Assembly: GCA_034231615.1 (NCBI GenBank)
Contig: CM067316.1
Span: 65,576,353-65,640,352 of the forward strand
Direction: 5' to 3'
Length of the DNA stretch: 64,000 nt
Source: Meghimatium bilineatum
Lineage: Eukaryota > Mollusca > Gastropoda > Stylommatophora > Philomycidae
The notes below the pieces were generated by a model. The model saw only the letters and a list, made by a program, of their open reading frames with translations. It was not told where the DNA came from and did no database searches. This document shows, piece after piece, positions 15,401 through 49,900 of the stretch (the stretch's first letter is position 1; each line of letters starts with the position of its first letter). The translations under genes and the position numbers were made by a program.

Positions 15401-18400
15401 GCTCTTGCTCTAAATTATTTTATCCAAATTCGATCAAGATAATCAGGGATTTTGTTATTTCGGATTTGGATAATCAGATTTCTACTGTATTGGCATAAAA
15501 ATGTTTAAGTATTGATGGACATATGGGAAAAACCGTAGAAAGGACAAGAAATTTGTACAATCTGACAGGCATGAACATGCTTTCTTGACTTACCTGCTCA
15601 ACTTTCTCTTCAGGTACCGTAACCACAACTGACATGCACAACCAAATCAACGCTAAGGAACTGAACAAGAACAACACGCTGAGAAGAAGTCGTGGAACAC
15701 CTGTCTTGTGGGCAATGCAGGTCAACCAATCACTCGTGTCATCCATCTCATGTGCCCATGAGTCTGCCTGAAATGTCAACAAAATATTCACCACAAAACT
15801 GACACATAAAACTAATGGGTGAGATTGGCAGAATAAAGTGATATATCTGCACACAAACCAGACAGAATCAAACTAGATGGTTGCATGTGTTCACATTTAC
15901 AACATTGGTAGAATCAAACTAGATGGTTGCATGTGTTCACATTTACAACACTGGTAGAAACAAACTAGATGGTTGCATGTGTTCACATTTACAACACTGG
16001 TAGAAACAAACTAGATGGTTGCATGTGTTCACATTTACAACACTGGTAGAAACAAACTAGATGGTTGCATGTGTTCACATTTACAACACTGGTAGAAACA
16101 AACTAGATGGTTGCATGTGTTCACATTTACAACATTGCTAGAATCAAACTAGATGGTTGCATGTGTTCACATTTACAACACTGGTAGAAACAAACTAGAT
16201 GGTTGCATGTGTTCACATTTACAACATTGGTAGAATCAAACTAGATGGTTGCATGTGTTCACATTTACAACATTGGTAGAATCAAACTAGATGGTTGCAT
16301 GTGTTCACATTTACAACACTGGTAGAAACAAACTAGATGGTTGCATGTGTTCACATTTACAACACTGGTAGAAACAAACTAGATGGTTGCATGTGTTCAC
16401 ATTTACAACACTGGTAGAAACAAACTAGATGGTTGCATGTGTTCACATTTACAACACTGGTAGAAACAAACTAGATGGTTGCATGTGTTCACATTTACAA
16501 CATTGCTAGAATCAAACTAGATGGTTGCATGTGTTCACATTTACAACACTGGTAGAAACAAACTAGATGGTTGCATGTGTTCACATTTACAACATTGGTA
16601 GAATCAAACTAGATGGTTGCATGTGTTCACATTTACAACATTGGTAGAATCAAACTAGATGGTTGCATGTGTTCACATTTACAACATTGCTAGACATTTC
16701 ATCGCAGTCTCAGCTATTATAGCAAGAGCTTGTAATAACTATATATGAAATTCTGCGACTAGTTATGCCTAGTTGTGATAAGACATCACTGTTACCATCA
16801 CAATTTTCACTAGGCGCGAACAAGGAATCAACCGGTAGCCACAGGTATAGGCCTAAGTGGTAGCTCTGTCACTGGGCAGGGCGGGTCACCCATTTGTCCC
16901 GACATAAAGTATTGTCAAAGGTAGCGGATATAAATGGATATCTCCATTATGGGAAACTACTAAATTATTCTCCCAAGAAGAAAGTCATGTTGACACACAG
17001 AAGTAGGCCTACAGTATGTAGTGTTAATACTGCAACATGGAGCATCAGATAGTTAGCACAGAGTGGTAAATTAGGCAACATCAAACAAGAAATGGAAAAA
17101 ATGAATGTAAATATCTTTGAAATGAGATGGACTGGGGCAGGAGAGATAAATTTAAAGTCATATACTCAGGTGGACAAAAACACAAGAGATGTGTAGGTGT
17201 ATTAGTAGGCACAGAAACTGGAAAAAAACAGTGAAAGGTTTCATGGCAATATCAGACCGGGTAATATTAATTGAAACTAACAGGAAAACCATTGGATATT
17301 AACATTGTACAAGTTTATGCACTCACATCAAGCAGTTAAAGGAAGACATTGAACATTTTTATGGAGACCTAGAAATCGCAATGAAACAGTGTAAAAATCA
17401 TGAAGTAGCTATAGTAATGGGGGAATTTAATGCAAAAGTAGGTGAAACAGAAATAAAAGATGTGACTGGAAGATTTGGTTTAGGGGTTAAGAACGACAGA
17501 AGTGATTTATTGATAGTGGGCACACGCACATAATTTAATAATAGGGAATACATGGTTCAAGCAACACCCAAGACGACTGTGTACATGGATTAGCCCAGGA
17601 GATAATACTCAGAATTCAGTTGATTAGTCTCTAAAAGACATAGAAACAGCATTAGATCTATGAAAACATGGCCATGCGCTGACTGCAACAGTGATCATAT
17701 ACTACTGTTGGGGAAATGTTTTATAAGATTAAAGAAAATCAAGAAATCACCAAGAATTATGAAATTAAATTTCACAGTTTTTAAATCAGATGCTGACATT
17801 AAAGAAAGATACAACATAATTGTACAAAATAGATACAATGCTATTGCAAAGATTCGGTGTATTGAAGATCAATCATCATCATCATCAAGTGCCGTCTCCG
17901 CAACGAAGGTTGGCTGCAACGTATTTCCAACATCTCCTGTCTCTTGTCTTGGTGGTGCACTCTACTAGACTGTAACCTGTCCATCGTGTAATGTTACTCT
18001 CCCACTTGTATCTCTGCCTTCCTCTTGCTCGCTTCCCTTTGACTTTACCCTCAAGTAAGGTCTTCATTAAGGTGTCATGTCTTTTAATGTGTCCAAAGTA
18101 TTTTATTTGCCTGATCTTTATTTCTCTTAGTAGTTCTTTCTTCATATTAAGTGTCTTTAGCACTTCTTTATTTGTTTTCTTCTCTTTCCATGATGTTCTC
18201 CCTATTCTTCTATATACCCACATCTCAAAGGCATCAATTTTGTTTTCTAATTGTTTATTTAGTGTCCATGTTTCTGAGCCATACATTAATATGGAATAGA
18301 TGTAGCATTTTATAATTCTCATTATAATCAATGGAACATGATAAAACATTTGATAAACCAAACATCTAAAGAGATAATACCAAAAGTAAAATGTACATCA

Positions 18401-21400
18401 AAACAAAAATGGATTTCTGAAGAAATATTAGAATTGATGAGCACCAGAAGGAAAAATAAACACAAGATAGTGGAATATCAGAAAATACATAAGGAGATAC
18501 GAGAGAAATGCAAAATAGCAAAAGAAAGCTGGCTGAACAAGAAATGCACGGAAACAGAATACAATCAAGATACAACATTACTACATAAGCAAATTGATGT
18601 GATAAAAGGGAGAAGAACGCAAACTGTTACAGTGTGTCTAAAATCTAAGATAGGGCAGGTATTGATGGGAAAAGATCACGTAGTACAGAGATGGTCAGAA
18701 TATATCAAAGAACTTTATGATGACAATAGACCTGAGATAAACATACAAGATAATGGCGAGGGTCCACCAATACTCGCAGCAGAAGTAAGGGAGACCCTAA
18801 GACACATGAAATACGTCATAGTCCCAGGACTAGACAATATCACATTAGATGAAACAGTAACTTTAAGTAACTTTGGAGTTGAAATAATCACAAAATTGCT
18901 GAATGACATATATAATTGCGGACACATACCAGTTGACTTAATGAGATCCATATTTATAGCCTTACCTAAGAAACCAGGGACCACCGAATGTGAAGAACAC
19001 CGTACAATCAGCCTCATGAGACAAATAACAAAAATACTTCTCAGAATCATCATGAAGAGAGTGAGAGAAAAAAAAAAGAAATAAGTCCAGAACAATGTGG
19101 CTTTGTAGAACAAAGGTACAAACAATGCTATATATATTTTTATAACACTAATTGAGAAGTCTATAGAGGTAAAATCAGATCTGTACCTCTGTTTTATAGA
19201 CTACACGAAAGTATTTGATAAAGTTAAACATAGTGAAGTCATACACGTGCATGCAATGTACACTGTGCATGTCTTATGACATGCATGGAAGATAAACAGT
19301 TTTGCTATTCCTTGTTCCATTTTCTATCTCTGGCAACACTCGGGTGAATTGATAACTTGTTATATTTTAAAAAATAACATATTTACAGTTAAAACACACA
19401 AAATTCTACAGTAAGTCCATCTGATACAGTCAGTCTGATACAGTCAGTCTGATACGGTCACAGTAGAATATCTACGTAGTGTGTGTCTGCACTTATTTGA
19501 AACAAACCTCTGCAGCATTGACTTCGTTACTGACAGCCTTCGATGACTTGAGCTGTGACTGTCTCAGAACAACTGTAGCAGTCTTATCTAAAGCTTGTGT
19601 TATAGTCTCCATGACTGAGTTGGTACCTCTGTTTGCTAAATGATATGGGAACACACAACACATATACATATATGGTTATGTGTTTAAATTAACAAATGAC
19701 ATAACAGATGAACAAAGTCTCCACATACAGATATCTTATCTTGAACCTACTATCACATCTTTGCCTAAACCTACTGACATAGCATCTTTGCCTAAACTTA
19801 CTGACATGGCATCTTTGCCTAAACCTACTGACATGGCATCTTTGCCTAAACTTACTGACATGGCATCTTTGTCTAAACCTACTGACATGGCATCTTTGCC
19901 TAAACCTACTGACATGGCATCTTTGTCTAAACCGGCTAGTGATAGATAAATATATAGAAGTCCAAAAAAGTATCTATATTTGCTTCATAGACTACAGCAA
20001 GGCCTTTGACAGAGTCCAACATGAACAATTAAACAAATGTCTTCAAGAAATAGGCATAGATGGAAAAGACATCAGACTGATTAGAAATATATATTGGGAA
20101 CAGACTGTATCCATAAGGTGTGAAAACAGCTACTCACGATACATAGAAATAAGAAGAGGGGTAAGACAAGGATGTATTTTATCACCAAGCCTATTTAATA
20201 TCTACACAGAGAATATCTTTAAAAATATAGAAGAAATACCAGGACTCAAGATCAATGGGAAAATAATAAACAACATTAGATATGCAGATGACACTGTTCT
20301 TTTGGCAGAAAGTGAACATGAACTACAAAGACTAATAGATCAAGTCAATAAATCAAGTAATGAATATGGACTGGATATAAACATTCAAAAAACAAAACCC
20401 ATGATAATCAGCAAAGACACAGAAGAACAAGAGGTAAACATAAACATACATGGAGAGAAACTACAACAAGTAAAACATTATCAATATCTTGGACACATAG
20501 CCAAAATGACAGCAGATGTGAAACAGAAGTTAAAAGGAGAATAGGAATAGCTAAAAGTACCTTCAATGACATTAAGGAAAATAGTAACATCTAAAAAATT
20601 TACAAACAAGTTAAAAATGAGAATTATAAAATGCTACATCTATTCCATATTAATGTATGGATCAGAAACATGGACACTAAATAAACAATTAGAATTGATG
20701 CCTTTGAGATGTGGGTATATAGAAGAATAGGGAGAACATCATGGAAAGAGAAGAAAAGAAACAAAAAGGTTCTAAAGACACTTAATATGAAGAAAGAATT
20801 ACTAAGAGAAATAAAGATCAGGCAAATAAAATACTTTGGACACATTAACAGACATGACACCTTATTGAAGACCTTACTTGAGGGTAAAGTCAAAGGGAAG
20901 CGAGCAAGAGGTAGGCAGAGATACAAGTGGGAGAGTAACATCACATGATGGACAGGTTACAGTCTAGTAGAGTGCACCACCAAGACAAGAGACAGGAGAT
21001 GTTGGAGATACGTTGCAGCCAACCTTCGTTGCGGAGACGGCACTTGATGATGATGACTGACATAGCATCTTTGCCTAAACTTACTGACATGGCATTTTGG
21101 TTTAAAACCAACCTGTGTCACAATAATACCCACCACCTGTCTCCCACTAATATACCCCTCCTTCCCCCCTTATTGCTTGATCACATACATACTACACATC
21201 TTATCCATTTATTATCAATAGTTATGAACTAGAGGAGAAGAAGCTTCAGAACACATGATGATGATGACTGACTCTATACAAAAACTAACCAGGCAAATCT
21301 TGCATATCTTTCATGAGTCTGACCCGAGGTTGTGAATTCACTACAACCAACACGCCAGAGTTATCTTGTAAGATGAATAACCAGGAAATAGGTAAATGCT

Positions 21401-24400
21401 GCGTGATCTTCACTATCAGATTGTTGCATAACTTGTGCATGTGGAGTACAGGGTACATCATATGTTGTATCCCGCCAACAACAATATTGGAGTCAGTGTC
21501 AAACTGAAAGAAGAAACATTGGAGTCAGTGTCAAACTGAAATAAGAAACATTGGAGTCAGTGTCAAACTGAAATAAGAAACATTGGAGTCAGTGTCAAAC
21601 TGAAATAAGAAACATCAGAGTCAGAGTCAAACTGAAAGAAGAAACATCAGAGTCAGTGTCAAACTGAAAGAAGAAACATTGGAGTCTGTGTCAAAGTGAA
21701 TGGAGAAACATTGGAGTCAGTGTCAAAGTGAATGGAGAAACATTGGAGTCAGTGTCAAAGTGAATGGAGAAACATTGGAGTCAGTGTCAAAGTGAATGGA
21801 GACTATTCCTTGGTGTCAATAACATACAGGCAAAAGAATACAACTTTTATCTGTTTTAAAAAAGACCATAATCCTATACTCAGTGGGGGCACTCATTTTT
21901 CCCTACCTAAAGTATTGTCAAATGCAGGAGATATAAATGGATACTCCCCATATGGAAGTGGAAAGTAACGGGAAACTACTGCATTATTCTCCCAAGAAAA
22001 CAGTCATGGTGACACATACATATTTTGTAATATGAACCTTTATAATATGTAATATTGATCAGAGAAGGACCTGACATACCACCAACAAATCAACTAGTAA
22101 AGGCCTGTTCGTTGGACAAATATCACATGGAAGGAAAAAATCCTGGTATGGGTGTCATACCAGCAGACATGTTCAAGACAGGAGGAGAGGTGCTTGTCCA
22201 GAAGCGTACCAAGATCTTTGTTACATACTGAAACTCAGGAACCCTGCCTCAAAACACGAAAGATGCTTCAACTGTCCACCTATATAAAGGCAAGGGATAT
22301 AAACAGTCATGTGACAACCACTGAGGGATATCATTGCTATCCATAGTTGGTAAAATATTAGCTCGTGTAATACTGAACCAACTTATATAGCAACAAAACA
22401 CATTTTCATTCTCTGGACTACATCCTCCTGGAAATCTAGTAGATTCATGGTCCTGCTACAAGAGAGATCCAGCGGTAATTTGTGAATGAACGCTGAAGAA
22501 GAAGAACTCACACCAAACAAACCACACATAAATCCACATATGATCAAAGAATAGCTGCAAACAGTCAATAATTTCACCTAGCTTGACAGCACTCTCACAA
22601 GATGTAAACATCGACACTGAGGTAACCAACAGAATAGCAAAAGCTTGTGCCACATTTGGAAGACTGCAAGAAAATGTATGGGAAAGAAGGGGAATAACAA
22701 CTACCTCCAAACTCATAGTTTATCAAGCAGCAGTAATATCATCAATCCTTCATGCCTGTGAAACATGGACAGTATATGCAAGACATGCTAGAAGACTCAA
22801 CCACTTCCACCTAAGCTACCTTCGTAAGAGACTCAACATCCATTTGTGGGAGAAAATACCAAACAGTGAAGTACTGATGAAATCTAAGTCTGTAAACTAA
22901 AATCTAAGTCTGTTGATGAACACGCAGACACGCTGGGTAGGACACATTGTCCGCATGAAAGATCATTGTCTACGAAAAATGTTATTAAGTAAAGAACTCC
23001 AGATTGGTTCCTGCAAGGTCAGAGAACAGAAGAAGCATTTTAAAGAAACTCTTAAGACATCAATGGCTCACTTCAAAATAGACACAAATTCATGGGAGAA
23101 TCTTGTAAAAAGATCCAACTGGCGTCACAGAATCAAGACTGGTGCAGCAGCTGTAGAGAACCTCAGACATTAAACTGCACAATAAAAATGTGTTAGATGA
23201 CAGGAAAGACCTGCTCAATGTCCCAGAAATCATCCCCATTACTGTACTACATCTCACTGGGCTTCATCTCGCTGGATAATTGTTCTACCAAATTTCCATG
23301 GGAGTCTGCGAATGAATGCTTACAAATCATACAACAAGGAATCTGTTAAAAATGATAAGCTGGTACAAGAACTGAGCAGACAAACATAGACAATTATTAC
23401 CTGCAGATCAGGCATACTTACATTGTTCCATTTTCCTACAAATGGTTTCTGACTTTCACATCCTAATATACAAGCTGATTGTTCATTCTCTCTTTGTGGG
23501 TATGCTTCTCTACAGTCTGCAGAAGATTGCAAATGTCATATTTTATTGCATGCCATGTTCAAGTCTTCATACATGCATCACAACTATACATGCAATCACA
23601 CAATTATATTATACATGCAATCACACAATTATATTATACATGCATCATACAATTATACATGCATCACAATGGTTTATTGGTTGCTGATCCAGCAGTGCAT
23701 GGGCTCATACCTTTTGACCACATGCCATTGTGTGATATATGCATGTGTTTGTGAGCTGTTGTTTTGTTTCATATAAAGTGTTCCATTTATCTGGCCCTGG
23801 AGGAAGAAGCATTTTTCTGATGTCATCTAGGGCTGGGCATTCAAAATGGTGGTGGTCAACAGTTTCATGGGGATCTGTGCACAGCCAGCACCCTGGAGTG
23901 TGTTATGGTTGTATTCTATTCAGGTGATTGTTAAGCTGTACATGTTGTGTGCACAGTTAGAAGATGATAAGAAACTGATATGAGGAGAAAACTGACAGCA
24001 CTGTTTTCCTATTGGATGAGGCCCCACATTATGTGCCAGATGGTCATCTTCTGCATGTTTGTTGGATAGGCTGTTAGTGTGGTGACATGTCCCTGAATGT
24101 CATTCTTGGTATAAGTAATAATGCCACAGCAGTTGGTATACTTACAGGCATAGCTGGTATATCCTGATAGATATGGGTCAGTGTCTTTGTGTATAGTCTC
24201 CTGTAAGACGGCCACATGTATCTTGTGAGTGTGTAGAAATTTAGCAAGATCTAGTTTTTTTGTTTCTTATACTACAGATGTTCAGCTGTAGGATGTTAAA
24301 TGAAGACTTTATTTTATGACAGTCTTGGCTCTGCTGGTTGGTTCTTCCTCCAAGGTTTTCTGAGTTTAATGTTTTAGTACTTCTGTAGATGTTGCTATTG

Positions 24401-27400
24401 TGTTGTGTATTGTGCATGTCGATATTTGTGTTGCTGTTTTTGATGCACTCCAGTAGTTAATTTCACGGCCAGAACAGCCTGGTTACCCACTGCCTGCTGT
24501 GGACCTTGATAACCGAGGCGATGTCCGATCTCGTTTGTAAGTAATATTTGTTATACTGGCATTATATTGTTGGGAAGTTTGTGGATTTTCAGCCCAGCCT
24601 TGGCCAGAGCATAACTATCACACCACCAGGAAGGTAGGTTTCAACCTATGCACTGCTCCAAGCAGCTGCAGCCAAGATAGGGTTCACTGTGCGCATTCCC
24701 CGCCACCAATTGACTACTGGTTATGTCGAACTTCTCTATTGCTCCAGGCATGCACCCAAATGTTCATGTCAAAAGGATTGTCACGTCCTGAGTCACTGTG
24801 CCTCTATGATGGGTTTCAGTCATAGGAAAAAACAGTGCTGTCAGTTTCCTCCTCCCCAGTGCTGCACAGTACATCTCTGGCTCCCTCCCAACCACAGAGG
24901 GTGCATACATATATATTTAGGTAAACTTGAAACACATTTCAACAACAAAATAAAAGCATAATTGTATAGATGATGTGCCATGAAGCTTCTATAAGAAGAG
25001 AATCTCAATATAATGGCATGTCATCTACTAAAGTTGTCTGTTGCATGGGTGGTTTGTCTAGTGGGCTATTTGTGCACTCCACAGATGAAAACCATGCGGA
25101 TGTATCACAATCATACATGGATCACACAATCATACATGGATCACACAATCATACATGCATCACACAATCATACATGCATCACATATAGATCACAATCATA
25201 CATGATCAATGGAAGCTAAATGATATCTGTTATGAAGACCATCACATGAGATAATTAGTTAGTTAGTTAGTCGTTGGACCATCATCACTGCAAACTGGAC
25301 ACATCCATAGTTGCTCCGATCTCTCCTTGAGTGTATCCGCCATCACACTTCTGCGGACAGTACCGGTCCTATGCTGGTTGACCATCATTCTTCTGCGCCC
25401 TCCAAAATGTTCACCTCTAGCAACACCGCATTTCAATCCCTGATCTTTAATCCTAGCCATTGAAAAGGAATCATCATCCACATTAGTCTCACTCTCGCGT
25501 GTTATATCTCTTAAGGAGTTTAAAACGTCAGCGCGATCCATTGCCCCATCGCCCTGTGCCACAATCATACACGATGCCAGTTGATCCGCTCTTTCATTGC
25601 CTCGAACGCCCACATGTCCCGGCCTGAAAATAAATGTAACCGCTTTCAAGCTCGCATTTCTCAAGGCCTCAATCCACTGTTCGCGAACGAGACCCACTTG
25701 TACCTTCTTAATCATACTCATAGAGTCACTCAAGATGCAGACCTGCGTTACCTTCTGTGTGCGTAGCCACTCAAATGCCTTGGTCACCATCATAGTCTCC
25801 ATGGTCATACTACTCGTAGTGACCGCAAAGGCACCACTTTCCTCCTTGATCATTTTACCTGCGCACTGAGCTGTAAAGGCCCAAGCACTGCGAATATGCC
25901 TAATTACAGATCCATCATTGTATATAATCACATCCCCCTCTTTGGTATTCTCACTGATTAAAGCCTGCACTTCTTTCTTCACAGCTGTGGGACACCATTC
26001 TCTGTATTCCCTGCTAAGTGATATTACTACTCTCAAACAAGTTTCAAAATCTGTGGGTAGACCTATCCATTCCGCACCTGCTGCCACATCCTGTAATCTG
26101 CACATGCTTTGTATTACATCCTCAGCACGTCCCATCCACGATCTTCCTCTCTTGAGTCTGCTGCTTTTAACTTTCTGTATTTCGGAATGCAACGGGTGTT
26201 CCTTATCTACATGTATTTGAAGGTACGCCCGTGCACTGCAATACTGTAATCTATGCTCAGCTGTTGGGCAGTCAAGTAGGTATCGCATAGCTCTTGTCAA
26301 TGTGTCTCTTGTGCATCCCAGAATGATACGCATTGCTGCATTCTGGACTCTATCCAGTCTTTCGATCTGAGTTTGGCTAAGAGTCAGAATTGCCAGTGCA
26401 TATTCCACCACAGCCACAACCAAACCGTGGTACAAAAGAAATAACAATCTTTGCTCACACTGCGCAGCAGCCATAACCTTCATTGCTGCTAAGCCTTTGC
26501 CTGCCCTTATGATAATGTGGTCAACATGTTCTCTGAAACTCAGGCTTCTGTAAAAAAAACACACCCAGATATCTCATTGTGCTAGTTCTTTCTAAACTTT
26601 TCCCGGACAACGAAACTTGTGGCATGGGTGTCTTTGCAATGTGATTGTTCAAGGAAAACCATGTCACGAATGCCTTAGACGGATTAACCACTGCTCCCGT
26701 ATCTCGACACCAATTTGTCAGTCTGTCCAGCTCCTTCTGTAGTTCCACGACGCACTCTTCTCGATTTCTGCCCTGTCTATACACCAGGATATCATCGGCA
26801 TATGACATCGTTCTGCCAACACCTGTGATTTGATTGCCAGCGATATGTACTGTGTATACATTGAAAAGTACAGGAGATAGAGGCGATCCTGTGGCAGGCC
26901 AGGGCTAATAACCGTTGGTGTAGATATCCAGTTACCACACTTAAGAACTACAACCCTGTGCATCAGGGCGGCGCCATCCCAACGCACGACAAAAGGATTA
27001 ACTGCAAGATTTAACAGCTGGTGCATCAAGATATCCAAGGACACCCTATTGTACACATCCTCAAGGTCTATTACGACCGCACATGTCTCCATGCGCGAAT
27101 CGAACCCCTCAAAAACATCCTGCGCAAATATAGCTGCATTCTGCCATGTCTTCTTTCCTGGACGATATCCTCCTAACAATGTTGGTAAACACTTATTTCT
27201 TTCAAGATAACACGATACCTTCCGGGCCACAATTTTTTCCAAAAGCTTGCCAATCGTATCATACTTAAAGGATCTTACCTTTGGCCTTATCTTCTTACTT
27301 TTGTATGAGATAATTAGTACCCACACATGTGAGATAATTAGTACCCACACATGTGAGATAATTAGTACCCACACATGTGAGATAATTAGTACCCACACAT

Positions 27401-30400
27401 GTGAGATAATTAGTACCCACACATGTGAGATAATTAGTACCCACACATGTGAGATAATTAGTACCCACACATGTGAGATAATTAGTACCCACACATGTGA
27501 GATAATTAGTACCCACACATGTGAGATAATTAGTACCCACACATGTGAGATAATTAGTACCCACACATGTGAGATAATTAGTACCCACACATGTGAGATA
27601 ATTAGTACCCACACATGTGAGATAATTAGTACCCACACATGTGAGATAATTAGTACCCACACATGTGAGATAATTAGTACCCACACATGTGAGATAATTA
27701 GTACCCACACATGTGAGATAATTAGTACCCACACATGTGAGATAATTAGTACCCACACATGTGAGATAATTAGTACCCACACATGTGAGATAATTAGTAC
27801 CCACACATGTGAGATAATTAGTACAGTTGAATCCTTCTATAGCGCATCCTCTTATAACAACTTTCCATATTTTCACAACTTTTTTCACAATCAACCAATT
27901 ATATCTATTCTATCAGCTGAAGTCGGTTGTGTCAGGTCAATGGCACATATAAAACGGCAACACAGCGCATTTCCATTCTCTGGACTACATCATGTTGAAA
28001 ATCTATCAGGAACATTGTCTGACTTCTAGTTCAGGAAGTAAAGAATAGCACCACTTTATTCTGTCCAGGAATGTCATAGGAAGTGACTAAGTAAAGTTGG
28101 GGAATTGTCTACAGACAACCTGACTCCCTGTGAAAAATGTTGGGGGATTGTCTGCAGACAACCTGACTCCCTGTGAAAAAAGTTGCGGGATTGTCTGCAG
28201 ACAACCTGACTCCCTGTGAAAAAAGTTGGGGGATTGTCTGCAGACAACCTGACTCCCTGTGAAAAAAGTTGGGGGATTGTCTGCAGGCAACCTGACTCCC
28301 TGTGAAAAAAATCATCATTGTCATATCTTGTCTCAATTTATCTTCTATCCAATAATTCCCATGGATGATCAGGAAATGAAATGAATGCCAGTGGACATTG
28401 CACCTTTGTCATTTTGTGGTAGACTCCTAGGTGACTGGGAATGCTAGATGTGCCATGACTGCGGAAATGTGAACAAATATGATAGAAGAATGCTAGATAG
28501 ACAGCCCAGAAGTGTGTGCTCCTGGCAGGATGTGGTAATCCCGAGATACTGGAATAACACTCTCAAAATGATACTAAACATGAATTCATCCACCCCCCCC
28601 CATTTACATCCATACATTCATCCACCCCCACATTTACATCCATGCATTCATCCACCCCCACATTTACATCCATGCATTCATCCACCCCCACATTTACATC
28701 CATGCATTCATCCACCCACACATTTACATCCATGCATTCATCCACCCCCACATTTACATCCATGCATTCATCCACCCACACATTTACATCCATGCATTCA
28801 TCCACCCCCACATTTACATCCATGCATTCATACAACCCCACTTTTACATCCATGCATTCATACACCCCCACTTTTACATCCATGCATTCATCCACCCCCA
28901 CTTTTACATCCATGCATTCATACACCCCCACTTTTACATCCATGCATTCATACACCCCCACATTTACATCCATGCATTCATCCACCCCCACTTTTACATC
29001 CATGCATTTGCAACCTTATAAGAGTCTCAGTGTTTCCACGGTTACACAACTGAGTTACACAACTGAGTTACACAACTGAGTTACACAACTGAGTTACACA
29101 ACTGAGAACAACCTATGCTTTTGTCAGAGAGGACATGTGCTGCCAGGAGCTATTTTCTCACAGCTAAAGCAATTTTTTCATCACCATTATCTGTGTGTGC
29201 TGTATATAGCATATTTCTGTTACACTACATACATATTACATTGATTCTGGCCAAGTTGTTGCAATGAGATTTGACCATTTCAGTTGTTACAAGATACACT
29301 ATCAGAAATGAAGGCATGCATGATCTGTCACAGATTTTCTCTAGTGTGCCATTTATCTGAACAATTTAGTAGCCACTGACTTAGATAATCTTTCATGTCC
29401 TGTCAAACTAAAACTGTGTCTTGTGATCAATATTCTCTAAAACATGGCGGGTGAGCGACTGAGCACATAATTAGAAGGTAACTGCTCATAAATAAAATAT
29501 AGCAACCCTCACACATAAATAAAATATAGCAACCCTCACACATAAAGAACTATAAATTGACCAATTTCTTTGATTTTTTTGTTTTAGGTAGTAACAACCG
29601 TACCCGCTCATGGTAGAAATATTTACTGCTCCGGCATCTTAAGATTTACTCACATGAGAAAAAAATTAGATGGAATGTTGGTTGTGATAACAAAATTAAT
29701 TTTCAAAAACTGAAAGAATGATGACGTAAAATGTCGACTAGATGGTAATATTAACATACTGTCTGAGCAAGGCTTGATGGAAAAATCTTTGTCTTTAATA
29801 TCAAACACCAGCTGGTTAGCAGGATGTAGCCCTTTGGATCAGAAAGTGTCACAGTTTACAGCTTGACTGTGATATCTGTGCCTTTCGGTCATACACATCC
29901 AGATATTGGTGCTGTAACCTGATATCTGACTGAAGAACGATGAAGAAGATACACATCCAACTTTTGTGTCACTTTGAACTACAGGATTGGACATCAAATG
30001 ACAACCCAACAGCCTTTGCTGCTTCTTATGACATGCATGGCAGATCACAGTGTTGCTATTTTGTTCTTCCATTTCTCTCCCAGAACATGCATGTGATTAA
30101 CCTACAGCCACCCACCGGCTGCATATGTCACATATTTCCTTTCTCCAATAGAAACACGAGGGCAGTGTATGTGACATTCAAATTAGCCATTTGTTGTCAT
30201 GGTAAACAATCTCACATGATCTTTCCGATCATGATTTTGCAACAACTCTTTACTAGAGTTACTGTCCTTGTATTTTTCAGCAGTATTTGAAAGATTCGTA
30301 CATTACATTTGGTCTATTAACGTTGGGAAGCCAAGCCACAATGTTTACTTAATTTTGGAAAGCCATTGTTCGTGTAGGCCTATTCTTCTTGGATACTGAT

Positions 30401-46184: not shown

Positions 46185-46460
46185 CCTTACCGTATCATGT
46201 TTACACAATAATGTGACAATGAGTAATTCCTTACCTTATCATGTCCACACAATAATGTGACAATGAGTAATTCCTTACCTTATCATGTCCACACAATAAT
46301 GTGACAATGAGTAATTCCTTACCTTATCATGTCCACACAATAATGTGACAATGAGTAATTCCTTACCTTATCATGTCCACACAATAGTGTGACAATGATT
46401 TCTAAACATTATCTCTTCTCCCTTACCGTATCATGTCCACACAATAGTGTGACAATGGGT
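46185..46460. repeat. 44-bp minisatellite, downstream of the NIPA-like stop
   Basis: Six units of TTACCTTATCATGTCCACAC plus AATAATGTGACAATGAGTAA. Confidence 0.94.
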
Positions 46461-46668: not shown

Positions 46669-46916
46669 TTACTTCCCTTGATAACCACCTGAATCGTCCA
46701 GTCCCAGTTTTTCTCTGTCCACCAGCATGTCCATTGATGTTATGGACACAGTGTCACTATCATCACCATACCTGCTGGAGCCTTCTGTCTGTTCTTCAAT
46801 TGTTTCCAAAATATCTGCACGAAGAATTGGTACCTTGTCACCATCTGTATGCTTTAAATGTTCCACATGTCCATGAGGTTGCACTTGACCTATATTCACA
46901 TTAGCCAGCATCCAGG
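46669..46916 (-). CDS. NIPA-like exon h (cytoplasmic tail, TAA stop)
   Basis: Acceptor tttgtacag. The split codon T|CC gives IPSWMLANVNIGQVQPH, then an acidic tail to GGYQGK stop. Confidence 0.92.
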
Positions 46917-49900
46917 CTGTACAAATAAAAGATTAGATGACAAAATGAAGCAAAGAAATCAACATTGAAAAAACAAGACATATGTACAGACAATATAAGT
47001 TAAAAAACAAGACATATGTACAGACAATATAAGTTAAAAAACAAGACATATGTACAGACAATATAAGTTAAAAAAACAAGACATATTTACAGACAATATA
47101 AGTAAAAAAACAAGACATATTTACAGACAATATAAGTTAAAAAACAAGACATATGTACAGACAATATAAGTTAAAAAACAAGACATATTTACAGACAATA
47201 TAAGTTAAAAAAACAAGACATATTTACAGACAATATAAGTTAAAAAAAACAAGACATATTTACAGACAATATAAGTTAAAAAAACAAGACATATTTACAG
47301 ACAATATAAGTTAGTCATCAGATCATCATCACTGTACACAGAACTGCAGAAATCGGATGTGCTAGGTATATTTTGCGCAGATTGAACGATATCACAACAT
47401 ACTTCATGCTCCCTGTGGAAATCACCAAATATTCACGATGATTATTTAAGAGCGGTTGCAGGAGAAGTGCACAGAACACATCCACATGTGCTCCAATCTC
47501 CTCCTGAGAATATTAGCAGTTAACGATGATCGATAGTTCTTTATTAGTAGACGAACATTCTTCAAACACAACAATGGTGCTAATTTCTGGCAATATCCAA
47601 TTTGAAGCCCAGATTTTTAAAATCTGGACAAAGAAAATGGATCATCATCTTAATTTTTTCCTTTGTCCATGCTGTTTCAATATGTACAGACAGTGGCTGA
47701 TGACTGCAAGTTTAGTCAAAGAAAAATGTAAGATTGGTTGATGGAAAAGTAAAATTAGACATGAAAATGTGCACAATAAATGCAGAGAAACTCAGAAAAT
47801 AAGCCAAGAGATATAAACAATTGATGTTTCTAACATTTGAACTTTCTTGGCAGTATTAAATAGTTCTTTCCCTCAAACAACTCAACCAGAAATCAAGCAT
47901 CGAAGATTGACTGCACTTACATGGAATGAGATCCGAAGCCACATGTTGAGATTTGGTATCAGGCACAGCATCGTACGAGCTGGCACCTTTTCCAACTGCT
48001 ATGAAGTAGACGGCCAGAAACGATAGGGCACAACTAAAATAAAACCAAAGAATGAATTAATAAAAAACCAACCAACATTATCAAACATTTTTCTATGTCA
48101 CATGTTTTAATCAAACATTTTTCTATGTCACATGTTTTAATCAAACATTTTTCTATGTCACATGTTTTAATCAAACATTTTTCTGTCACATGTTTTAATC
48201 AAACATTCTTCTATGTCACATGTTTTAACCTTTAGCAAGCCAGATTAAAAAATACGAAACGTCTCCATGCCACCGGATTCTTTTTTGAAAATGTGCGTTA
48301 TTGATGGTGACTGTTTTGAAAATGTGATAATTTTTTGGTTGTTAAAGATATTTAAATAATATTTGCACATATAAATAAAGAATTGAATTATGCATATATT
48401 GGTGTAATTTATGTACGTGTGTGTGTGATACCAGACATATGAGAAAGTGGTAAAGACGTTTTTCACAAAAAACATATATTTTGTAACAAATAAAGAGGAA
48501 AAAAATTAATAAAAAAATTACTTACCTTATTTATCGAATTCCTTGGCAACACTGTAAACTAAATCAAGCAAATCTGTTGTATTTATGTTCTTTCACTGCG
48601 AAATTATCAAAATATAGCCAGAGGAACTGTATAAAACATGTAGATTTGCAGTAAAATCCTTCTTTGAGCTTAGGTCTAGTCATTTTTGGTTCCACTTCAA
48701 CATATTCGATATCAAACATCTACATGTCTCCAAACCAACGCTGCATTCTGTATATTCACTGCTGTGAAACTAAATAACTCAATAATTCATGATTCAAGCC
48801 ACGATTAAATGTTATTTTATTCAAAATACGATGAAAGATAGGTCTATAAAACCGGTCACATCATGGCATCGTACCGGTGTGCAGATATGGTCAGATTAAT
48901 TGCTATAAAATTTGTATCTTCTGGCTAGCCATTGTTACAACGATCATGCCGGACGTAGGAATGAACCGGCTTCAATAGCGCATGTTCCCGAGTAACCAAT
49001 CAGGCTGTGGGGCGTCTATTATAACGATATCTCATTGGATGGGGTATGTCGCCAACGGCGCTAGACAGCATTTTGTTTTTCGGCGGCCGGAGTTGATATA
49101 GGCGTGGTGAAGGTTAATCAAACATTCTTCTATGTCACATGTTTTTATCAAACATTCTTTTATGTCACATGTTTTAATCAAACATTCTTTTATGTCACAT
49201 GTTTTAGTCACACTTTGTTTATCCTTCACATATTTTTCCCAGTGACACATTCAATAGATCTTTGATTCGAGTGTTGATTCATTGATGTCTATGACAATTG
49301 CAGTAATTATTACTAAATATGTAATGTTATGTAATAATATGGATATATTAGAGTTATTATATAACCACGCTTTGGTCTAGTGCGTTCGACAAACATTTCC
49401 AAGTTTTGGAGTGCTATTGACAAGTCTGATAGTCCGTTTCTATGACTATTGATGAAAATAGCAAAATCTTTAACCTTAAGGACGCTTTGATTTAGTGCAT
49501 TCAACAACAGTTTACAAGTCTCCGACATACAGGTGTCAAGTGTACAAGGACCATTGCTAGGCACACTGTAATCAATAAAAAAAAGGTCAAATATTTAATA
49601 TTTTGGTTACCAGATTAGATAAATCTGGCTAGCTATTTTGACTTTCTTTTTCTGTAAGTTTAGTGGACGTGACGGATCAAATGTCATTGAAATATCAAAA
49701 TTTCCGACATCTGCACACTGGTATGGTGCCATGAAAGTAAATCAGGTTTTTATACTTTTGTTTTATTGTAATTTCAGTAAAATCATTATGGATTGTGATT
49801 TGAATGATGATTTCTTGGGAGGTAGTTTTCACAGCTTCAGAGAACGATTTATGGCTAATCTATATGATTTATTTATTTTCCCCAACAATATTATGATAAT

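Follow-up and report, generated by a model that had tools for sequence, protein, structure and literature searches.

In register, a tandem array within a TMEM59 gene presents ten minus-strand splice junctions, spaced exactly 32 nt apart, that lead into exon 4, and among these array junctions the last copy (21503) alone gives an intact protein. We consider it fairly probable that the array is a mirage-type minisatellite of complete 3′ splice-site modules, in which the nearest acceptor is chosen through exon definition and errors are removed by decay. The window referred to below is the whole 64-kb stretch of DNA that was analyzed.

The gene was described by a six-exon model, in which exons were chosen by eye from translations and joined by consistent phases; the model stops short of the 3′ end of the gene.

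34677-34525, minus strand: TMEM59 exon 1
31128-31023, minus strand: TMEM59 exon 2
23516-23422, minus strand: TMEM59 exon 3, with donor AAT/GTAAGT, which pairs with the array acceptors over a 1918-nt intron
21503-21290, minus strand: TMEM59 exon 4 (214 nt), entered in phase 0, with donor GTTAGT from 21289
19635-19508, minus strand: TMEM59 exon 5
15767-15594, minus strand: TMEM59 exon 6

The spliced product matched the Pfam family BSMAP (PF12280), which we take to include TMEM59, over profile positions 1-197 of 197 (E = 8.9e-34; 117.8 bits vs a gathering cut-off of 25). Together with the phases, this match supports the first-pass annotation, which had placed an acceptor at 21504 before the fourth exon of a minus-strand TMEM59 family gene (fourth, that is, of the six modeled here). 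From the exon coordinates, introns 3 and 4 measure 1918 and 1654 nt. The exon 2 boundary is less certain because its acceptor scored −4.9 with the acceptor matrix used; this has no bearing on exon 4. A search by sequence returned no solved protein structure for the TMEM59 product at E up to 1, and no RNA family was found in the window at gathering score. No exact copy was found in viral_contigs for 20 bases of the repeat unit or in genome_contigs for 29 bases of the exon 4 start, as expected for an animal gene.

TRF placed a period-32 array at 21486-21796 (9.7 copies, 95% matches, score 489), and a 25-base unit probe had nine matches in the window at three or fewer mismatches, vs 0 in 100 shuffles. 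The register confirmed the earlier description of the 32-bp unit as the last 14 nt of the intron followed by the first 18 nt of the exon, with CAG at six junctions (21663 to 21503) and CAC at four (21791 to 21695).

21791, 21759, 21727, 21695, 21663, 21631, 21599, 21567, 21535, 21503, minus strand: exon-side first bases of the ten junctions
21486..21517, minus strand: unit +0, authentic, in which the intron closes with GTTTCTTCTTTCAG (21517-21504) and exon 4 contributes its opening 18 nt (21503-21486)
21518..21613, minus strand: units +1, +2 and +3, decoy acceptors with GTTTCTTATTTCAG, which has an A within the pyrimidine tract
21614..21677, minus strand: units +4 and +5, decoy acceptors whose 14-nt intron end matches the authentic one exactly (junctions 21631 and 21663)
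21678..21805, minus strand: units +6 to +9, in which CAC replaces CAG and the junctions are lost; tract TCTCCATTCAC
21685..21687, minus strand: extra AG (CACAG, exon start 21685) in unit +6

The authentic unit forms the exon-side end of the cluster, with the copies adjoining it on one side, and the match of the outermost unit (+9) begins at about 21802. Among the nine decoy junctions, five keep AG and four read AC. Few changes mark the two ends of the cluster: the authentic unit differs from its neighbors at 1 of 32 sites and the outermost unit from its own at 3 of 32. The variable columns of units +8 to +0 are spread over the intronic part (4/14) and the exonic part (4/18). The units also fall into blocks, with +1, +2 and +3 mutually identical (one change vs the authentic unit), +7 identical to +8, and +4 one change from +5; the exonic parts of +4 and +5 carry three and two changed sites, respectively, relative to the authentic unit. 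The earlier statement that six junctions keep both a pyrimidine tract and CAG holds for CAG at all six, whereas in three of the five CAG decoys an A breaks the tract.

Scoring with acceptor and branch matrices, both of them crude, agreed with the unit comparison in finding near-identical competing acceptors, as the first-pass annotation had proposed. The authentic site scored 9.40, as did units +4 and +5; units +1 to +3 scored 7.24, and the CAC units fell below 0. Unit +4 equaled the authentic site on both acceptor and branch-like scores, and of the 999 AGs that the gene span contains beyond the array, 11 scored above 9.40 and 48 above 7.24; the tie with unit +4 and the 11 higher-scoring AGs count against our main reading. 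At five of the six CAG junctions, a CTGAC with its adenine 22 nt upstream lies within the exonic half of a unit, a branch-point-like motif absent from the earlier description. The one serving the authentic acceptor is as follows.

21524..21529, minus strand: branch-point-like ACTGAC by the motif model used, adenine 21525, 22 nt upstream of exon 4 and contributed by the exonic half of unit +1

Before unit +5, the position reads CAGAC, and TTTGAC at 28 nt matches best; a single T-to-A change in the exonic part of unit +6 both makes the AG at 21685 and turns CTGAC into CAGAC. Because the exonic half of the unit carries CTGAC, five of the six CAG units appear, by the scoring used, to be complete 3′ splice-site modules. 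A complete module was defined, with thresholds set after the unit scores had been seen, by an acceptor score of at least 7, a branch-like score of at least 5.5 with its adenine 18-44 nt upstream, and no AG from 12 nt past the adenine to the site; on this definition the minus strand of the 64 kb contained nine, of which five are in the array, and the plus strand five, at most one per 320 nt. The idea that RNA structure hides the decoys was unsupported, as the 561-nt region folds less stably than shuffles (z = +2.34; every one of 100 shuffles was at least as stable).

All nine upstream junctions, when spliced to exon 3, lead to a premature stop, which lies 168 to 433 nt short of the exon 4 end. 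One extra unit leads to a stop at 21460, in the body of exon 4; with two to nine, translation ends at the TGA of TTTGAC, which falls in the repeat's third frame. The addition of three units (96 nt) had been thought tolerable, yet a stop at 21533 closes this product and rules out in-frame rescue by that route. Further AGs between 21685 and 21850 (21685, 21802, 21808, 21843 and 21850) also gave a stop in 5/5 cases, as did loss of either exon 4 (214 nt) or exon 3 (95 nt) by itself. When exons 3 and 4 are both skipped (21290-23516, minus strand; 309 nt), the reading frame runs on without a stop through exon 6. Nonsense-mediated decay usually acts on transcripts whose stop precedes a junction by more than about 50 nt. 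Since the decoy stops lie beyond this distance, the products are expected to be unstable, and TMEM59 RNA mis-spliced to any other unit should be lost to decay; leakage would then cost mRNA level and make no new protein. That errors give stops and not altered proteins suggests why a repeat can be tolerated at this boundary.

The array probably arose by tandem duplication of a 32-bp stretch over the intron 3/exon 4 boundary, after which the copies would have expanded and been partly homogenized in blocks (four CAC units, two, three, and the anchored authentic unit), a pattern such as unequal exchange or slippage turnover would give. The duplication would have put CTGAC, a candidate branch point, 22 nt upstream of the next AG. 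According to the available part of PMC1431707, the first AG downstream of the branch point is used, and AGs nearer than about 12-15 nt are bypassed. With AGs every 32 nt, this exclusion-zone rule would place the authentic branch point within ~47 nt of exon 4, entirely inside the array, and the best branch-like site in that interval is the ACTGAC listed above. The rule also gives each CTGAC before a CAG its own AG, and the contest would thus be one between whole modules.

According to the accessible sections of PMC9225289, 3′ sites separated by more than 12-20 nt are as a rule each defined by a tract and branch point of their own. Because the array sites, 32 nt apart, can therefore be expected to use separate branch points, the choice would be made at first U2AF and U2 binding, not by step-two AG scanning. 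The same sections recall the classical finding that, when two 3′ sites compete, the upstream one is used, state that the upstream site is favored across the intron, and describe an overall upstream preference for sites at least 20 nt apart. They add that exon definition takes over once flanking introns are longer than 200-250 nt, with a significant weakening of the upstream preference; a reversal is not stated in these sections. As both flanking introns are long (1918 and 1654 nt), exon 4 would be recognized by exon definition from its own donor, which may favor the nearest acceptor and hence the 214-nt exon. The overall upstream preference in PMC9225289, as far as its available text goes, argues against certainty on nearest-acceptor choice.

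A bolder version, which we put forward only tentatively and regard as doubtful, is that the branch points were born in the exon: the array would have displaced the old branch site, the authentic acceptor would depend on duplicated coding sequence, and the modules would form a self-propagating chain, with its copy number determining what share of TMEM59 transcripts goes to decay.

As a natural experiment on how acceptors are chosen, the TMEM59 array is clean. Classical work asked which distance decides between competing 3′ splice sites, that across the intron, with the upstream site winning, or that across the exon, with the downstream site winning; the part of PMC9225289 available returns to this question. 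At this locus six sites compete naturally in nearly constant local sequence, the introns on either side are long, and a single array junction keeps the frame; junction read counts would thus measure exon-centered selection directly. The first-pass annotation was right to call the choice of the proximal site a real question, but the question is not new, like arrays having been reported in lancelet Adh3, globin, troponin C and PGBD5.

The term "mirages" reportedly goes back to a 2002 paper. In the available text of PMC3087553 and PMC3902484, mirages are minisatellite-like tandem duplications of exon–intron boundaries in lancelet globin genes, known earlier from Adh3 and with remarks on troponin C and PGBD5, and all the cases under that name have cephalochordate hosts. 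Unit sizes there are 10-72 bp in Adh3, 150-160 bp in BflGb6 and 157 bp in BflGb9 (PMC3087553), and BflGb6 has six and three units in two haplotypes (PMC3087553, PMC3902484). Adh3 data and globin RT-PCR suggest, in the portion of PMC3087553 at hand, that regular splicing is undisturbed, although its authors remark that the copies could act as cryptic sites. Compared with these accounts, the TMEM59 array likewise spans intron and exon sequence of one boundary (14 + 18 nt), has its authentic junction beside the copies at one cluster end, keeps AG in many but not all copies (5/9 decoys), and bears signs of concerted evolution (+1, +2 and +3 identical; +7 and +8 identical). It differs in its gene, in its 32-bp unit, and in that most CAG units carry their own branch-point-like motif, of which we met no counterpart in the available text of PMC3087553 and PMC3902484. 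The array belongs to the mirage class, which is already described; this case is new. If the host is not a lancelet, mirages are more widespread than the cases in the accessible parts of those two papers.

Other tandem acceptors resemble the array less closely. The available part of PMC2812944 describes variable internal tandem repeats of human genes located in segmental duplications, with units averaging 30 bp, some of them at exon–intron boundaries; about half change coding sequence, and boundary ones may form novel introns. With use of the proximal site, and unlike in those repeats, the TMEM59 copies stay intronic and exon 4 gains no length. Three bases separate NAGNAG isoforms (PMC3250501, from the text available), and close AGs are chosen at step two (PMC9225289, likewise). 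Several AGs compete in one intron here as well, whereas the junctions lie 32 nt apart with separate branch-point-like sites. This spacing set aside a NAGNAG-type arrangement (AGs within about 12 nt sharing one branch point) as a candidate. One study (PMC4039745) is said to treat minisatellites and alternative splicing in C. elegans. Judged by titles and the starts of abstracts, a literature search on TMEM59, tandem repeats and splicing returned no report of such an array, and the available part of PMC2206037, on lancelet huntingtin, mentions tandem repeats, none of them over a splice site.

The direction of change within the array bears on how it arose. The CAC junctions had been described as decayed, which is reasonable for the AG because the ancestral acceptor should be AG, unless the exon grew into the repeat; it does not extend to the tract, where the polarity of change is not fixed because the distal type agrees with the outermost flank. 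The latter agreement, in tract TCTCCATTCAC, favors an opposite order of events, in which an intronic minisatellite with CAC came first, a C-to-G change next to the exon made the acceptor, exon 4 gained 18 nt (six codons, FDTDSN), and neighboring units later acquired the CAG type. A linker shorter by six residues is compatible with the family profile (117.8 bits whole vs 118.7 without FDTDSN), but the gain is just 0.9 bit and unspecific, the product scoring 119.0 without VGKWNN, 118.9 without DSNIVV and 121.7 without IVVGGI. Among seven of nine generated six-residue deletions that were scored, these three neighboring ones raise the score by 1.1 to 3.9 bits, and three others lower it by 4.5 to 5.7 bits (ESQKPF 112.1, QHMMYP 112.9, VLHMHK 113.3 bits). 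The linker around FDTDSN is length-tolerant, and the deletion score does not decide whether it was inserted; we consider the repeat-first order unlikely.

Retention of AG in five decoys, the tie of +4 with the authentic site and the early stop in every decoy product would also suit regulated tuning, in which units are used according to tissue or individual and the out-of-frame products serve as an unproductive-splicing switch with its strength set by copy number. The near-identical blocks, however, are as in young, freely turning-over repeats, and lancelet mirages are reported as spliced normally in the available text of PMC3087553 and PMC3902484; regulation of this kind seems highly improbable. 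Even less credible is an assembly error in the copy number or the whole array. One haplotype's BflGb6 mirage was apparently misassembled in the lancelet draft genome (PMC3087553, in the part available), but the present array is just about 320 bp long, its units differ in a block pattern, and repeats are the rule here, with 58 other non-redundant arrays in the window. Duplication of the boundary, followed by turnover of the copies, is the reading we prefer.

The window contained 59 non-redundant tandem arrays with a median period of 31, and all TRF rows together cover 24.0% of it; array coverage of the TMEM59 span is 18.4%. One of the 11 TMEM59 junctions lies inside an array, against a mean of 2.64 when the array map was rotated (P of at least one, 0.89). 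With 24% of the window in tandem repeats, overlap of one junction is therefore expected, a point to which the first-pass annotation had given no weight, and we rejected it as a surprise in itself. Exon bases within arrays numbered 18 of 870; if anything, exons are avoided, which fits selection against overlap. A general tendency of arrays in the window to be made up of splice sites is weak at most: in 40 arrays with at least three copies, taken on both strands and compared with mononucleotide shuffles of the units, strong acceptor-like sites occurred in 6 of 80 array-strands (3.4 expected) and strong donor-like sites in 8 of 80 (6.3 expected).

Several further repeats and matches were observed. 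In TMEM59 intron 2 (28093-28310, minus strand), about five 43-bp units each carry an acceptor-like T-run and CACAG/GGAGTC on the sense strand, with no recognized exon attached. Repeats of 44 bp at 46185-46460 (minus strand) contain six donor-like sites, GATAAG/GTAAGG or GATACG/GTAAGG, and lie downstream of an apparent terminal coding exon of another gene (46672-46932, minus strand, by eye). Also in intron 2, 22 of 24 bases at 29757-29780 (minus strand) match the end of exon 2 plus its donor (31043-31020); no other ungapped match of at least 22/31 was found in the window, but a gapped shuffle test did not support the match (score 20; shuffle mean 15, maximum 23). Retroelement-like ORFs (reverse-transcriptase or related, by eye) lie in TMEM59 introns at 22544-22900 (plus strand), 17303-20541 (plus strand) and 25263-26573 (minus strand).
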